A DNA stretch of 64,000 nucleotides, from positions 62,001 to 126,000 of the forward strand of contig JAJTFH010000002.1 in NCBI GenBank assembly GCA_021298395.1. The letters are read 5' to 3'. The position numbers and the translations under genes were made by a program. The stretch is from Gemmatimonadota bacterium (GTDB lineage: Bacteria; Gemmatimonadota; Gemmatimonadetes; Gemmatimonadales; Gemmatimonadaceae). The notes under the pieces were generated by a model, which ran no database searches, was not told the origin of the DNA, and was given only the letters and a program-made list of their open reading frames with translations. Positions 4,749-29,322 of this stretch are shown here, one piece after another. Position 1 is the stretch's first letter. Each line of letters begins with the position of its first letter.

Positions 4749-5108
4749 ATGCGTCATCGTAAGGCAGGCCGGAGCCTCCGGCGTACGTCGGAGCAGCGCC
4801 TGGCGCTCCTCCGCAATCTCGCGACCTCGCTGATCGAGCAGGGCGCCATCGAGACCACCGAGGCCAAGGCGAAGGAGCTGCGGCCGTTCGTGGAGAAGCT
4901 GATCACCAAGGCGAAGTCGGGGACGCTCCACGACCGTCGCCTCGCCGGCCGGCACGTGCAGAAGCGCGCGGCGGCGGACAAGCTCTTCCAGGATGTCGGC
5001 CCCAAGCAGGCGGGGCGCACCGGTGGCTACACGCGCATCCTGAAGACCGGGCACCGCAAGGGTGACGGGGCGGATATGGCGCGCATCGAAATCATCCAGG
5101 AGGGCTGA
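4749..5108 (+). CDS. rplQ: 50S ribosomal protein L17
   Basis: Large-subunit protein near the exit tunnel. The 119 residues begin MRHRKAGRSLRRTSEQRLAL and include the conserved TTEAKAKELRPFVEKLIT segment and GGYTRILKTGHRKGD. Start at the ATG five bases after the rpoA stop, which gives the family's usual N-terminus; an upstream in-frame ATG overlaps rpoA and adds an unrelated arginine-rich stretch. Confidence 0.97.
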   Translation: MRHRKAGRSLRRTSEQRLALLRNLATSLIEQGAIETTEAKAKELRPFVEKLITKAKSGTLHDRRLAGRHVQKRAAADKLFQDVGPKQAGRTGGYTRILKTGHRKGDGADMARIEIIQEG

Positions 5109-5111
5109 CCC

Positions 5112-5333
5112 ATGGCCATCCAGCGCAATCGCTGCTACGTCTGCGACAAGGGCGTCGCCCATGGGAACTCCCGCTCGCACGCCAACAACTCGGTGCGCCG
5201 CACCTGGAAGCCGAACCTCCAGGTCGCCCGCATCGTCGAGGATGGCAAGGTCATCAAGATCAAGGTCTGCACCCGCTGCCTGAACGCGGGGAAGATCCAG
5301 CGGGCCCCGCGCGGGGCCGCGGCCGCGGTCTGA
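5112..5333 (+). CDS. rpmB: 50S ribosomal protein L28
   Basis: A 73-residue protein with the L28 signatures (KGVAHGNSRSHANNSVRR, then WKPNLQ) and a Cys-x2-Cys plus Cys-x2-Cys pair (CYVC, CTRC) that suggests a zinc form. Placement right after rplQ, three bases downstream, is not the usual rpmB-rpmG context but agrees with it being the last gene of this transcription unit, since a strong terminator follows. Confidence 0.95.
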   Translation: MAIQRNRCYVCDKGVAHGNSRSHANNSVRRTWKPNLQVARIVEDGKVIKIKVCTRCLNAGKIQRAPRGAAAAV

Positions 5334-22587: not shown

Positions 22588-24777
22588 ATGACCGCCGCGC
22601 CGCCCCTGATCGACATCATCCCGGGCTGGGATCTCCGGGACTCGGAGGTCGCCGGGCGGCTCGATGCCGACCTGCTCGGGCGGGCCTACCGCTTCAGCGA
22701 GAAGGCACATGTGGGGCAGACGCGCCTCAACGGCGATCCGTATGTGACGCACTGCGTGGAGGTCGCGCGGATCCTGGCGGAGCTCCACCTCGATTCGGTG
22801 ACCGTCGCGAGCGGGCTGATCCACGACGTCGTCGAGGACACCGGGCGCACGGTCGAGGATGTGGAGCGCGAGTTCGGGCGGGAGATCGCGCAGATCGTCG
22901 ATGGGCTGACCAAGATCGGTCACCTCCCGATGGCGTCGCGCGAGGAGCGGCAGGTGGAGAGCTATCGGAAGCTCCTCCTCTCGGTCGCCAAGGATGCCCG
23001 CGTCATCCTGGTCAAGCTCGCCGATCGTCTGCATAACATGCGGACCCTCGAGTGGATGCCCGAGGAGAAGCGGCGGCGCATCGCGCTCGAGACGCGGGAC
23101 CTCTATGCGCCGATGGCGCACCGCTTCGGTCTCGCGGCGATGAAGGCGGAGCTCGAGGACCTCGCCTTCAAGTGGCTCGAACCCGACGAGTACAAGGCCC
23201 TCGCCAAGCTGATCGCCGAGAAGCGGGCCGCACGGGATTTGCGCATCGCCGAGATGATCGAGCCCCTCGAGGCGACCCTCCGCGAGAACCAGGTGCGTGT
23301 GCATGAGGTGAACGGCCGGCCCAAGCATCTCTGGTCGATTTATAAGAAGATGCAGAAGCGGGATGTACCCTACGATGAGATCTACGATCTCTACGCCATC
23401 CGCGTCCTCGTCGACAGCGTCCCGGAGTGCTATCACGCGCTCGGCGTGGTCCATGGCGCGTGGACCCCGCTGCAGGAGCGGATCAAGGACTACATCGCGC
23501 AGCCGAAGTCGAACGGGTATCAGTCGCTCCACACCACGATCTTCGGCCCGCGCGGGACCCTCTTCGAGATCCAGATCCGCACGCGTGACATGCACCGCAC
23601 GGCGGAGTACGGCATCGCCGCGCACTGGCTGTACAAGGAGGGGGAGAAGGGGAGTCGCGACCTCGATCGTCACCTCTCCTGGTTCCGGCAGGTGCTCGAG
23701 CTTCAGCTCGACGCCGAGACGCCCGACCAGTTCCTCGAGTTCCTGAAGCTTGATCTCTATCAGGATGAGATCTTCGTCTTCACGCCGAGCGGGGACGTGA
23801 TCCAGTTGCCGAAGGGGGCGACGCCGATCGACTTCGCCTTCGCGGTGCATACGCAGGTGGGGCTCCACACGCAGGGCGCGCGGGTCAATGGCCGCATCGT
23901 GCCGCTCTCGCGCGAACTCCGGAACTCCGAGACGGTCGAGATCATCCGCTCGCCAGCGGCGCGCCCCAACCGCGATTGGTTGGCCCATGTCCGCACGGGG
24001 CGCGCGCGGCACAAGATCCGCCAGTGGCTCCGGAACGAGGAGCAGAAGACCTTCGTCGCCGTCGGGCAGGAGATCCTGGACCGCGAGCTCCGCCGCCGGC
24101 GGCATCCGAAGCTTGGCGAGGCCGAGCTTCGGACGATCGCGGCGGGGCTCAAGCTGCCCACCATCGAGCATGTGCTGGCGGCGATCGGGTCGGGGGACAT
24201 CGGGGTGACGGCGGTGCTCAAGGCCCTGCACCCGGAATTGGACGAGACGCAGGAGGTCGCGCTTCGCCCGAGTCCGATCGAGCGGCTGATCGACCGGATG
24301 CGCCGCCCCGGCACCTCGCGTGGGTTGCGGATCCAAGGGGCTGATGGGCTGATGGTGCGCTATGCCCAGTGCTGCCAGCCGGTGCCTGGGGATACCGTCG
24401 TCGGCTATGTCACGCGCGGTCGCGGGGTGAGCATCCATCGTGGGGACTGCCCGAACCTCCTCGTCCTGGTGCACGAGCCGGAGCGGCGGCTCGAGATCGA
24501 CTGGCAGGAGAGTGCGGGGGAGCGCTTCGTGATCCGGCTCGCCATCGAGGGGCAGGATCGCCGCGGGCTCTACGCCGATCTCGCGACGGCGGTCAGCGCG
24601 GCGGGCACCGACATCCGGTCGCTCGAACTCAAGACCATCGACGGGCGCGTGGCGGGCGCCGCGCTCGTCGAGGTGGAGAACCTCGCCCACCTCGAGCGGA
24701 TCATCAATGCCGCGCGCCGGGTGAAGGGCGTCAGCTCCGTGGCGCGACGGGAACGCCTCACCGACGGCGACGGTTAA
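22588..24777 (+). CDS. rsh: Bifunctional (p)ppGpp synthetase/hydrolase, RelA/SpoT family
   Basis: Sets (p)ppGpp levels in the stringent response. 729 residues in the standard order: HD hydrolase domain with intact metal residues (H55 region YVTHC, HDVVEDT at 79-85), synthetase domain at about 265-350 (YDLYAIRV, KPKSNGYQSLHT-like PKSNGYQSLHT, FEIQIRT), TGS domain (DEIFVFTPSGDVIQLPKGAT), helical part with a conserved cysteine pair (YAQCCQPVPGD), and C-terminal ACT. Intact HD and synthetase motifs imply both activities. The upstream promoter touches the start codon, and no Shine-Dalgarno is visible. Confidence 0.96.
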   Translation: MTAAPPLIDIIPGWDLRDSEVAGRLDADLLGRAYRFSEKAHVGQTRLNGDPYVTHCVEVARILAELHLDSVTVASGLIHDVVEDTGRTVEDVEREFGREIAQIVDGLTKIGHLPMASREERQVESYRKLLLSVAKDARVILVKLADRLHNMRTLEWMPEEKRRRIALETRDLYAPMAHRFGLAAMKAELEDLAFKWLEPDEYKALAKLIAEKRAARDLRIAEMIEPLEATLRENQVRVHEVNGRPKHLWSIYKKMQKRDVPYDEIYDLYAIRVLVDSVPECYHALGVVHGAWTPLQERIKDYIAQPKSNGYQSLHTTIFGPRGTLFEIQIRTRDMHRTAEYGIAAHWLYKEGEKGSRDLDRHLSWFRQVLELQLDAETPDQFLEFLKLDLYQDEIFVFTPSGDVIQLPKGATPIDFAFAVHTQVGLHTQGARVNGRIVPLSRELRNSETVEIIRSPAARPNRDWLAHVRTGRARHKIRQWLRNEEQKTFVAVGQEILDRELRRRRHPKLGEAELRTIAAGLKLPTIEHVLAAIGSGDIGVTAVLKALHPELDETQEVALRPSPIERLIDRMRRPGTSRGLRIQGADGLMVRYAQCCQPVPGDTVVGYVTRGRGVSIHRGDCPNLLVLVHEPERRLEIDWQESAGERFVIRLAIEGQDRRGLYADLATAVSAAGTDIRSLELKTIDGRVAGAALVEVENLAHLERIINAARRVKGVSSVARRERLTDGDG

Positions 24778-24845: not shown

Positions 24846-25289
24846 ATGTACGCTGCGATCCTGCACACGCACAACGCCCTCCGATGGCTCGTCCTCGTCG
24901 CGGGGATCCTCGCCGTCCTGCGCACGCTGCAGGGCCTGAACGGGACGACCCCGTTCGCGGCGGCCCGCCGGTTGGGACTCACGTTCACGGCCGCCCTGCA
25001 TCTGCAGGTCATCACCGGGCTCACCCTCTTCGTGGTCAGCCCACTCATCCAGGCGGCGATGGGGGATATGCCAGGGACGATGAAGAATGCGCCGCTGCGA
25101 TTCTTCATCGCCGAGCACCCGACGTTGATGGTGGTCGCCGCGATCGTCGCGACCATCGGGGGGATCGTCGCGAAGAACGCCCCGGATGATGCCAAGCGCC
25201 ACCGAAAGGCCTTGGCCTTCACGGTGGCGACGTTGGCGTTGATCTTTGCCGGCATCCCCTGGGATCGTCCCTGGATGCCGGGGCAGTGA
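24846..25289 (+). CDS. Small four-helix inner membrane protein, function unknown
   Basis: 147 residues with four hydrophobic stretches, at roughly 12-30, 48-66, 92-112 and 122-140. Histidines sit near helix ends (LHTHNALRW, LHLQVITG, AEHPTLM), as in small b-type cytochrome-like proteins, but no haem motif is diagnostic, so no function is assigned. The ATG at 24846 removes an arginine- and proline-rich stretch that an upstream ATG at 24792 would add. Sits 68 bases after the rsh gene and converges on the H-NS-like gene, with a hairpin between. Confidence 0.7.
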   Translation: MYAAILHTHNALRWLVLVAGILAVLRTLQGLNGTTPFAAARRLGLTFTAALHLQVITGLTLFVVSPLIQAAMGDMPGTMKNAPLRFFIAEHPTLMVVAAIVATIGGIVAKNAPDDAKRHRKALAFTVATLALIFAGIPWDRPWMPGQ

Positions 25290-25325: not shown

Positions 25326-25793
25326 TCAGATCAGGAATTCGGCGGGGGACCGGCCCTCGGCGACCAGGGCCGCGAGCCAACGCGGCTGCTTCCCGCGGCC
25401 CGACCAGACCTCGCCATTCGGCCCACGGTACTTGGCCGGGACCTTGCCCCCCTTCGCCGCGCCGCGCGTGCCGGCCTTCTTGGCCTTGGCGCTGGCGCCC
25501 TTCTTGGTCGCTTTTGCCGGCCGTCCGCGCTTCCCGGCCTTCTTCGCTGCCTTCTTCGCCGCCTTCTTTTTGCCCCGCGTCGACGGACGGCCGACCTTGC
25601 CCTTCCGCCCGCGGCGCGCGCCGACCCCCGCCGCGAGATCCTGGAGCGTCAGCCCGAGGCGCTCGAGCGCCTCGGAGATAAAGCCCAGCGCCGCGGCACG
25701 GGTCTCGCGTTGCTGGGTCTCGATGCGCTCCAGCTTGGACTGGAGTTCATGTATCTTCTCACGAATGACGTCTGGGACGGCCGAGCGAGCCAT
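25326..25793 (-). CDS. H-NS-family nucleoid protein with a histone-H1-like lysine/alanine-rich middle
   Basis: 155 residues. N-terminal coiled coil for dimerisation (IREKIHELQSKLERIETQQ), then a low-complexity basic stretch of about 50 residues with KKAAKKAAKKAGKRGRPAKA, resembling histone-H1-like tails, and finally an H-NS DNA-binding domain (KYRGPNGEVWSGRGKQPRWL, then EFLI end). H-NS proteins bridge DNA and silence AT-rich genes. The start is the ATG at 25793, which begins the coiled coil; the frame stays open upstream on this strand but runs antisense through uvrB. Divergent from uvrB, with inverted and direct AT-rich repeats between the two. Confidence 0.88.
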   Translation of the reverse strand: MARSAVPDVIREKIHELQSKLERIETQQRETRAAALGFISEALERLGLTLQDLAAGVGARRGRKGKVGRPSTRGKKKAAKKAAKKAGKRGRPAKATKKGASAKAKKAGTRGAAKGGKVPAKYRGPNGEVWSGRGKQPRWLAALVAEGRSPAEFLI

Positions 25794-25839
25794 GAGGGGG
25801 TCCGGTGGAAGGGGATCGACGGCGCCATATCGGGCGCGG

Positions 25840-25873
25840 GATAATCGAGAGATAATCGATAACGCATTATCTC
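25840..25873. promoter_or_regulatory. AT-rich repeats between the H-NS-like gene and uvrB, likely operator
   Basis: GATAATCGA occurs twice as a direct repeat, 25840-25848 and 25851-25859, eleven bases apart (one helical turn). Overlapping it is a perfect inverted repeat, GAGATAAT (25849-25856) and ATTATCTC (25866-25873) separated by nine bases. The patch is strikingly AT-rich for this genome and lies between divergent start codons. It fits autoregulation by the H-NS-like protein or a LexA-like control of uvrB; which is not known. Confidence 0.5.
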
Positions 25874-25904
25874 CCACGATGCCATCCGTGGCGTGGAACG
25901 TCCG

Positions 25905-27986
25905 ATGACCCTCCTCTCCGTCCACGCGCCGTTCCAACCCGCTGGGGACCAGCCCCGGGCCATCGCGGAGCTCTCCGCCGGGCTCGTGCGCGGCGATCGC
26001 TTCCAGACCCTCCTCGGCGTCACTGGCTCCGGGAAGACGATGACGATGGCGCACGTCATCGCCGCGCATGGACGTCCGGCGCTCGTCCTCTCGCACAATA
26101 AGACCCTCGCCGCCCAGCTCTACGGAGAGCTGAAGGGCTTCTTCCCGCAGAACGCCGTCGAGTACTTCATCTCGTACTACGACTACTACCAGCCCGAGGC
26201 CTACGTCCCCGCCTCGGACACCTACATCGAGAAGGACGCCTCCATCAATGAGGACATCGATCGCCTGCGGCTCCGCGCCACCTCCTCGCTGATGGAGCGC
26301 GAGGACGTGATCATCGTCGCCACCGTCTCCGCGATCTATGGCCTCGGCGATCCGGAGACCTATCGGCAGGCGATGGTGACGTTGCAGGTGGGACAGACGA
26401 TCGCCCGCGACGAGATCCTGCGGGCGCTCGTGCGGATCCAGTACGGCCGCAACGACGTGAACTTCGAGCGTGGGACCTTCCGCGTCCGCGGCGACACCGT
26501 GGAGATCTTCCCGGCGTACGAGGAGCAGGCGGTGCGGATCGAGATGTTCGGCGATCTCATCGAACGGATCGCCAAGATCGATCCGCTCACCGGATCGACC
26601 ATCGCGACCCTGCCGCGTACGGCGGTGTACCCCGCGAAGCACTTCGTGACCACGCGGCCCACGCTCGAGCGTGCGGTGAAGGAGATCCGCGCCGAGCTCG
26701 TCGAGCGGCTGGCCACATTGAAGGGGGCAGGGAAGCTCCTCGAGGCGCAGCGCCTGGAGTCACGCACCAACTTCGATATCGAGATGATGCTCGAGATCGG
26801 GACCTGTCCGGGCATCGAGAACTACTCGCGGATCCTCGCAGGGCGGCAGCCCGGCGCGCGTCCCGCCTGTCTCCTCGACTATTTCCCGGACGACTTCCTC
26901 GTCGTGGTCGACGAGTCGCACGTGACCCTCCCGCAGATCGGCGGGATGTTCAATGGGGACCGCGCCCGGAAGACCACGCTCGTCGAGTATGGCTTCCGCC
27001 TCCCGAGCGCGCTCGATAACCGACCCCTCAAGTTCGAGGAGTTCCTGGCGCTCACCCCGCGCGCGGTGAACGTCTCCGCGACCCCAGGGGAGCTCGAGCT
27101 CTCGCTCGCGGAGGGGGTGGTCGTCGAGCAGGTGATCCGCCCCACGGGGCTCCTCGATCCCGTCATCGAGATCCGCCCGGTGCAGGGACAGGTCGACGAT
27201 CTCTTGCATGAGATCCGGCTCCGCGAGCGGCGTGGGGAACGTGTCCTCGTCACGACGCTCACCAAGCGGATGGCGGAGGACCTCGCCGACTATCTCGCGC
27301 AGGTGGGGGTCCGCGTACGGTACATGCACGCCGACATCGATGCCATCGAACGGATGGAGATCATCCGTGGGCTCCGGCTCGGCGAGTTCGACGTGCTGAT
27401 CGGGATCAACCTCCTGCGCGAAGGGCTCGACCTCCCCGAGGTCTCCCTCGTCGCGATCCTCGACGCGGATCAAGAGGGGTTCCTGCGCTCCGATCGCTCG
27501 TTGATCCAGACCGTCGGGCGTGCGGCGCGCCATGTCGACGGCCGCGCGATCTTCTACGCCGATCGCATCACGGGGTCGATGCAGCGCTGCTTGGACGAGA
27601 CCTCGCGGCGCCGGGCGCGGCAGGAGGCGCACAACGTCGAGCACGGGATCACGCCGAAGGGGGTGACGAAGAGCACCGATCAGGTGCGGATCGTCACCCG
27701 CGTGGCCGATGCGCGCGAGGGGACGACGGCACGCGAGGGGGAGCGCGCGTCACGCCAGACTCGGAAGAAGGTCGCTGAGGCGGAGCGGACCTATGGCACC
27801 GATGACCTGCCAGGGCTGATCGCACGGCTCGAGGAAGAGATGCGGACCGCCGCCAAGAACCTCGATTTCGAGACGGCGGCGCGGCTCCGCGACGAGCTCT
27901 TCGATGTGAAGGCGGCGATGGGGGAGGGGCGTGCGCGGCCTGGCGCCGGTGCGCGACCCGGGGGAGGTCGCCGTGCCCGTCGCTGA
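25905..27986 (+). CDS. uvrB: Excinuclease ABC subunit B
   Basis: Damage-verifying helicase-like subunit of nucleotide excision repair. 693 residues: Walker [11 protein letters not shown], the beta-hairpin [14 protein letters not shown] that probes [12 protein letters not shown], helicase motifs ([23 protein letters not shown]), and a C-terminal UVR motif ([28 protein letters not shown]) that contacts UvrC. ATG at 25905 was chosen; a GTG at 25893 would add four residues. Its end overlaps the following fusion gene by 14 bases. Confidence 0.97.
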
Positions 27987-29322
27987 ACTGACGGAGGAGG
28001 CGTTGCGCGCCTGGGGTGAGACGCTCGGGGCGACGGTCGCTCCGGGGACCATCTTCGCGCTCGAAGGCGACCTGGGGGCAGGGAAGACCACGCTCGCACA
28101 GGCGATCGCCCGGGGGTGGGGCGTCGCATCGGAGGTGACGAGCCCGACCTACGCGATCGTGCACGAATACACCGCGCCTCGCGGTCCCCTCGTCCCGCCG
28201 ACAGGTGGCCTGGTGAACGTGAGCGCTGCGATGGCGCCGGCCCGCGGTGGGATCGACGATCCGCTCCGCGGTACGGTCCTCGTCATGGACGCGGCCGCGG
28301 GCCCAGGGACGATCGCCGTGCTGCGTGCCGGCGCGGTGCTCGCCGACGCGACCGTCGAGATGCGCAGCATGGAGGAGGAACGCTTCTTCCCCGCGGTGCT
28401 CGCGACGCTCGAGCGCGCCGGCGCCCCCCTCGGCTCGCTCGACGCGATCCTCGTCGGGGCGGGGCCGGGGAGTTTCACCGCACTCCGCGTCGTGGGCGCG
28501 ATCGCCAAAGGGCTCGCCGAGGGGCGTGGCATCCCCCTCATCGCGATCCCCTCGCTCGCCCTCACGGCGACCTCGCCAGGCGTGACGCAGGTGCGGCTCG
28601 ACGCCTTGCGTGAGGAGTGGTATCTCGCCGCGTTGCATCGCGATGCGACGGGGGTCGTCATCGCGGTCGAGCAGCTGGGGTGTCGCCCGGCGGCCGAGGG
28701 CGCCGAGGCCATCGACGCGAGGCCGCACGCGCGCGAGGCACCACACCTGCTCGCCCTCGCGCGGGCGCTGGGACCGGTCGACCTCGCGGCGTGGGAGCCG
28801 CTCTACGGGCGTTTGGCCGAGGCGCAGGTGACGTGGGAGACCGCACATGGGCGACCGCTCCGCGCGGCCCCCGTCGAATGCCGCCCCGCGACCGCGGACG
28901 ACCTTCCGGCGATTCTCGCGATCGAGCGGGGGAGCTTTTCCGATCCCTGGGGTGCGACGACCTTCGCGGAGACGCTCGCCTCACCAACGGATCGCTGTCT
29001 CGTCGCCACACAGGGTGAGGTGCTGCTGGGGTACGGCATCGTCCGTCAGATCGGGCCGGAGGCCGAGCTCATGAACTTCGCGGTCCATCCCTCGTCGCGT
29101 CGGCAGGGGCTCGGGGACGCGCTCCTCGCGGAGATCCTGCGCGAGCTTGATGCCGAGGGCGGCGTCACCGTCTTCCTCGAGGTCCGGGCCAGCAACCTCG
29201 CCGCAGAGACCCTGTATCGCCGGCACGGATTCCTCCCGGTGGGTCGGCGGCGGGACTACTACGAGGCTCCTCGAGAAGACGCCCTCCTGATGCGCCGGGC
29301 GCCCATGGGCGGCGACGATTAG
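27973..29322 (+). CDS. TsaE (gutted)-TsaB-RimI fusion protein
   Basis: 449 residues combining three proteins linked to t6A tRNA modification and ribosomal protein acetylation. Residues 1-70 match the first half of TsaE, with Walker [10 protein letters not shown] (32-40) and TSPTY (56-60). The second half of TsaE, with its HxDLYR and EW motifs, is missing: about 30 residues lie between HEYTAPRG and the TsaB start. Residues about 100-290 are TsaB ([22 protein letters not shown]). Residues about 300-449 are a RimI-type GNAT domain ([18 protein letters not shown]). GTG at 27973 follows a GGAGG at 27963-27967; in-frame GTGs at 27931 and 27949 are alternatives. An ATG at 28231 could be an ancestral tsaB start. 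Confidence 0.85.

Follow-up and report, generated by a model that had tools for sequence, protein, structure and literature searches.

The H-NS-family gene and its domain layout

The window (the whole stretch of 64,000 nucleotides of Gemmatimonadota DNA analysed here) has a GC content of 69% and includes a gene of the H-NS family at positions 25326-25793 (-). The frame is exact, with an ATG start and a stop codon at 25326-25328, and encodes a protein of 155 amino acids (P0001). A Pfam scan carried to E 0.1 returned Histone_HNS alone (PF00816, aa 120-155; E 3.5e-13, 49.5 bits against a cut-off of 25.6), with no H1-like or HU family (no PF00216), and an NCBIfam search returned nothing above a cut-off. 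The protein consists of three regions in order: N-terminal predicted helices, a basic linker, and the C-terminal H-NS domain. An earlier note on this DNA, made from the letters alone, had reported an H-NS domain joined to a histone-H1-like lysine/alanine stretch, and the Pfam match together with a 67-residue acid-free linker bears this out. The word "tail" in its title does not fit the arrangement, as the basic stretch is internal, lying between the helices and the DNA-binding domain; the note's reasoning, which placed the stretch as a linker between a coiled coil and the H-NS domain, agrees with the position found.

The N-terminal helical region (aa 1-53; 25635-25793 (-)) includes a predicted helix at aa 8-46 and the start of another at aa 50-61, and from its family is presumed to be the dimerisation region. 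H-NS proteins have a helical oligomerisation domain with two dimerisation sites at this end, and the structure model of the P0001 monomer (mean pLDDT 75.6, pTM 0.37) predicts the two N-terminal helices. Mean pLDDT is 95-97 in the blocks of aa 11-50, about 90 in the C-terminal domain, and 42-58 in the blocks of aa 61-120, where a helix (aa 75-85) is drawn at low confidence within the KKAAKKA part.

The C-terminal DNA-binding domain (aa 120-155; 25329-25436 (-)) was assigned from Pfam, solved relatives, and a fold match. Among solved structures, a sequence search finds the C-terminal domains of Ler (2lev, E 8.6e-5), H-NS (2l92, E 0.0013; presumably Bv3F of Burkholderia), and StpA (2lrx, E 0.0033). 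Foldseek with the P0001 model also ranks Ler 2lev best (prob 1.00, E 0.013), and none of its matches reaches E 0.001. The AT-hook-like loop of the domain carries RGK at aa 133-135 (within SGRGKQP; 25389-25397 (-)), aligned with the QGR or RGR of other H-NS proteins. K135 is at least 90% conserved in a 39-row alignment of relatives, by which the RGK loop appears to be a common variant among them.

Composition and conservation of the linker

The linker (aa 54-120; 25434-25634 (-)) was bounded by a motif rule and is modelled mostly at low confidence. It is built mainly of lysine, alanine, glycine, and arginine (27% K and 12% R, i.e., 39% K+R; 25% A), lacks aspartate and glutamate, and has a net charge of +26. 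Lysine makes up 2.4% of residues across 45 likely-gene open reading frames of the window, which cover 85% of it and were picked by our own filter of length and codon-position GC; the richest of their 15,249 stretches of 65 residues reaches 15.4% K. The H-NS frame is not among the 45, and its linker would have headed this ranking. The lysine richness of the linker is beyond chance. The earlier note's "50-residue KKAAKKA-type" description was right in kind as to both the K/A pattern and the length, although the stretch is longer than 50 residues. It was also incomplete, passing over an AT-hook-like KRGRPAK (aa 88-94; 25512-25532 (-)) and another GRP core nearer the N-terminus (aa 68-70; 25584-25592 (-)). 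Most of the KKAAKKAAKKA part is encoded by a tandem repeat of 12 bp x 2.7 at 25537-25568. Slippage or a frame artefact as the source of the linker is out: only 32 bp of it is repetitive, and the linker persists in two other genomes.

These two genomes, G170 and G248, share the layout with the genome of the window (G000); their proteins are 94% and 54-55% identical to P0001, respectively. Directly ahead of the C-terminal domain, the three carriers have acid-free runs of 67, 67, and 69 residues. Between G000 and G170, which differ by few changes, pN/pS is 0.24 in the linker (64 codons), 0.24 in the C-terminal domain, and 0.05 in the N-domain. Between G000 and G248 the values are 0.88 (in a gapped alignment), 0.20, and 0.51; here the alignment indicates that length and charge of the linker are conserved and its letters are not.

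The AT-hook consensus is a GRP core with basic flanks. KRGRPAK fits it; from the P0001 copy alone the motif may also be due to chance, as [KR]GRP was reached in 2.6% of 20,000 shuffles of this linker (two GRP cores in 0.11%). The G170 linker keeps KRGRPAK and has RRP in place of the first GRP, whereas G248 has one RRRGRPAK at a different place in the linker. A single [KR]GRP is present in each of these two linkers (3.8% and 4.1% of shuffles) and in those of four other relatives: L116 (0.7%), L123 (2.4%), L118 (4.8%), and L115 (5.2%). The linker of L117 has no [KR]GRP, and a stricter hook pattern is missing in L118 as well. What speaks for the putative AT-hook is its recurrence, no single test being enough; G000 and G170 are not independent, and the motif is best regarded as suggestive.

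Distribution and genomic slot

PF00816 is rare in the phylum sample, being above its cut-off in 3 of the 395 genomes (3 of 179 in the family, 3 of 17 in the genus), all in one genus; two other genomes of the sample have weak matches below the cut-off. A whole-protein search of the genus gave weak partial-domain matches in two further genomes and at a second place in G170 (E 3.4e-4 to 0.004). The gene is carried by G000 (1.82 Mb), G170 (2.1 Mb), and G248 (2.3 Mb), a group with small genomes, and in all three it sits between a gene for a 147-aa protein and uvrB. The former, the "upstream" neighbour (24846-25289 (+)), adjoins uvrB in relatives without the H-NS gene; the divergent neighbour (25893-27986 (+)) encodes what we take to be UvrB, by recognition of its sequence rather than a family search. 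Both neighbours can be read at 16 loci of the genus, three with the gene and 13 with 14-107 bp between the match ends. The 147-aa protein has no Pfam match at E 0.001 and is present at 16 of 18 uvrB loci of the genus, between uvrB and a gene recognised as relA/spoT.

In a UvrB tree the carriers fall in one six-row branch (96/96, midpoint root) together with G290, G385, and a second, partial uvrB of G170. As drawn, the tree needs three changes in gene presence, because G290, G385, and the second G170 row are scored as gene-less; in G290 the slot is a 44-bp gap without the gene, and the other two are cut by contig ends and are uninformative on this point. The pattern is compatible with a single gain plus one loss or with two gains at the same slot, and a single gain is favoured because the slot is shared. 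The two uvrB matches of G170 (contigs C33 and C47), one of which starts at a contig end, are possibly strain variants in one assembly.

The AT-rich upstream element and potential targets

An AT-rich stretch lies upstream of the gene at 25838-25881, between it and uvrB. The most AT-rich 22-, 30-, and 40-mers of the window all start at 25841, the 30-mer having 70% A+T. At longer scales the number of position groups that match or exceed this stretch (its own included) is four at 50 bases, 13 at 100, and five at 200, and the 50- and 100-base A+T maxima of the window are near 23300. G170 has the same stretch, and G248 has a related one (best 30-mer 67%) at a greater distance from uvrB. A higher A+T content is to be expected of intergenic DNA, and the stretch is therefore suggestive only.

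Within it is a 22-bp element, GAGATAATGCGTTAWCGATWAT (25852-25873 (-)), which occurs once in each carrier genome and, with up to three mismatches, in none of the 14 other genomes of the genus; the pattern was written from the three carrier promoters and matches there by construction. In G000 and G170 the element is 59-80 bp ahead of the start codon, and in G248 it is 58-79 bp ahead. From uvrB it is some 20 bp away in G000 and more than 100 bp away in G248, a difference that ties it to the H-NS gene. An ordinary promoter could account for the element, and a promoter-like match at 25816-25845 on the opposite strand makes a shared promoter possible. An inverted repeat that the element contains was rejected as not above chance, since 46 of 100 shuffles reach its count in the window, and known structured RNAs are absent from the window at gathering thresholds.

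H-NS-like silencers are generally assumed to depend on AT-rich targets, and the earlier note had argued that a GC-rich host offers few of them. This premise holds, for several non-carriers too: matches to 12-base A/T runs number two in G000 (1.8 Mb; overlapping, at one place), none in G170, three in G248, and 0 to 19 in non-carriers. HU (PF00216) is found in 15 of the 17 genomes of the genus, carriers included; the two misses are 77% and 83% complete.

Relatives and origin

Among the best 80 of 275 relatives from a scan of named genomes, nearly all are proteobacterial, besides two from Gemmatimonadetes and one from Planctomycetia (L065). A tree of 101 shortened proteins places the three carriers in one group (100/99), inside a set that we label betaproteobacterial-type from record names (94/87; 98/87 with L065); this tree has 102 columns for 101 rows, and its bootstrap is unsettled. 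The placement makes transfer likely, and the P0001 gene was probably acquired horizontally. L065 (a Planctomycetia metagenome record, match 5001-5210) groups beside betaproteobacterial-type H-NS and represents either a second transfer outside the proteobacteria or mis-binning.

Mobile elements were also considered as a source. With one alignment (A2), 54 stretches of viral contigs matched and none of them was confirmed as a relative. A broader one (A4) gave 32 confirmed loci, and none of their 34 domain rows, two of them with negative scores, has an acid-free run of at least 40 residues or a [KR]GRP within its acid-free run; a viral origin was rejected. Close plasmid and phage relatives were rejected as well, with only two and one records, respectively, at E 1e-5, matched in the C-terminal domain alone.

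Betaproteobacterial H-NS proteins (e.g., of Achromobacter and Bordetella) share with P0001 the C-terminal domain with its WSGRG loop, the short helical N-domain, and a basic linker. In many of these rows the N-domain closes with a G[LI]T- or DIT-like turn ahead of the linker, and RGK is the loop of most rows of the 39-row alignment. P0001 differs from them in its Gemmatimonadota host and, compared with the Achromobacter rows, in a linker about twice as long (67 vs about 36 acid-free residues) with an AT-hook-like motif added.

How unusual the linker is was gauged by the length of acid-free sequence directly ahead of the C-terminal domain, with a threshold of 40 residues. In a proteobacterial class sample (274 genomes around G400), 0 of 54 rows reach the threshold and the median is 14; these rows are all those above the cut-off except G400 itself, the centre, chosen for its long linker, and four rows below the cut-off were left out. 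Three of 79 rows of pattern-selected relatives reach it (L050, L019, and L056), and K+R is 28% or more in two of these three. The 79 rows represent 78 loci, of which three give two rows each, with two duplicates dropped. L116 is a further long-linker protein, a second copy in the genome of L050. By the motif rule, the long linkers of these proteins from proteobacterial metagenome assemblies (L050/L123 and L116 in G399, L019/L117 in G400, L056/L118 in G401) have 54-56 residues and 30-41% K+R, with a hook core of RGRP in L116 and L123 and KGRP in L118. Their N-domain is of another subgroup (FGIT), unlike that of the carriers, and the tree separates L050, L019, and L056 from the carriers (100/84), so that long linkers may have more than one origin.

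The basic linker plan is thus common, with lengths that vary widely among relatives, and the long acid-free version is rare in the samples examined. Excerpts of PMC6936261 describe a positively charged linker as a conserved feature of H-NS, MvaT, and Lsr2 that probably helps recruitment to DNA. The general plan is already on record; the length and composition of the linker in P0001 and its host are unusual. Literature searches, judged by titles and abstract openings and with few subscription papers covered, brought up no description of this layout or of H-NS in Gemmatimonadota. The P0001 gene is real, and its protein is a variant of a known H-NS-family plan with an uncommon linker.

Proposed role and alternative explanations

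The reading that we consider fairly probable is that P0001 is a horizontally acquired H-NS-family bridging protein whose linker adds DNA contacts. Dimers would form through the N-terminal helix, and each C-terminal domain would reach with its RGK loop into the minor groove where the DNA is locally richest in A+T. The basic linker carries a single well-formed AT-hook-like motif and, in this copy, another GRP core; it would contribute loose phosphate and minor-groove contacts, giving more affinity and reach in a 69% GC genome with few good sites. The protein would then silence or organise comparatively AT-rich promoters, probably its own among them, and the element at 25852-25873 may serve autoregulation. 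AT preference may in this way be reinforced rather than replaced. In favour of this reading are the H-NS domain, the Ler, H-NS, and StpA relatives, the predicted fold, the highly charged linker with KRGRPAK, the rarity in the phylum sample, the single slot, the tree placement that points to transfer, and the conserved upstream element. These were observed here, and dimerisation, bridging, DNA preference, and autoregulation are inferred. Passages in two other sources bear on the setting: MvaT has a weaker hold on a GC-rich fragment, from which it is rapidly displaced (PMC4466236), and RGR loops go with GC-rich hosts, loop and linker both contributing in Sfx (PMC11796372). Several points count against the proposal. 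The hook statistics are modest one by one (2.4-5.2% of shuffles, except for L116), the first GRP is RRP in G170, L118 fails the stricter pattern, and L117 has no hook. AT tracts are so scarce that an AT-targeted role would find few binding sites, and carriers are no richer in such tracts than non-carriers; the AT-rich lead of the upstream stretch ends at 40 bases; and linker letters differ between G000 and G248.

The view of the earlier note was that the linker acts like histone H1, neutralising phosphates regardless of sequence and compacting GC-rich DNA in bulk. This is unlikely, though a serious contender: the linker has the corresponding composition, its lysine content is over tenfold above that of the window frames, and 12-base A/T runs occur at one place in G000 and nowhere in G170. 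In the spore-associated HU of Streptomyces (HupS), according to an excerpt of PMC3784963, a Lys-rich tail serves DNA compaction, and P0001 may be analogous as a nucleoid protein with a Lys-rich extension; HupS, however, is of the HU family and its extension is a tail, whereas P0001 has no PF00216 match and its stretch is internal. Sequence-blind binding also sits poorly with [KR]GRP in the linkers of all three carriers and four of the five others tested, with the AT-rich element kept upstream, and with HU as another candidate for bulk packing in most of the genus. The linker might instead be a passive spacer that drifted to K, A, R, and G under loose constraint after transfer, leaving the protein with the function of a short-linker betaproteobacterial H-NS. 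Such drift would suit the poorly alignable, much-gapped linkers of G000 and G248 with their high pN/pS and the variable linker lengths of relatives; it is improbable given that length and charge are kept in all three carriers although lysine codons oppose 69% GC, and that between G000 and G170 the linker is as constrained as the C-terminal domain, albeit over few changes.

Contamination, or a mis-binned proteobacterial piece, could be suspected from the nearly all-proteobacterial relatives kept (the best 80 of 275) and from the two Gemmatimonadetes relatives being metagenome assemblies. Its probability is close to negligible and synteny rules it out: the gene lies inside a 137,575-base contig, flanked by genes common to the genus, and the same junction recurs in three assemblies. 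A more far-reaching reading is speculative and quite unlikely. It holds that, in one small-genome lineage, a transferred xenogeneic silencer turned into a general chromatin protein by means of an H1/HMGA-like linker, carried along or grown, since the host genome is nearly without classical AT-rich targets; of the few strong short AT-rich sites that remain, one would be in its own promoter.

Lsr2, which we take to be a different sequence family from P0001, offers a partial parallel. A second Lsr2 of Mycobacterium smegmatis MKD8 is, in an excerpt of PMC6936261, a protein with a much longer linker, and thus like P0001 an H-NS-like silencer with an enlarged positive linker. The three assemblies establish PF00816 outside the proteobacteria. 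A GC-rich genome that is nearly devoid of long A/T runs and naturally carries an H-NS with this enlarged basic linker and AT-hook-like motif permits a clean comparison with the gene-less slot of close relatives; this comparison asks what the linker does and how a silencer behaves when its classical targets are missing.

A composite frame nearby

In a 463-aa frame at 27931-29322 (+), the front half of TsaE (profile 4-64 of 128) is joined to a TsaB-like part, matched by the Pfam TsaD model, and to a GNAT acetyltransferase. G170 has two separate matches for these, TsaE and the remainder, with about 150 bp between them, which suggests a deletion or an assembly join in G000.
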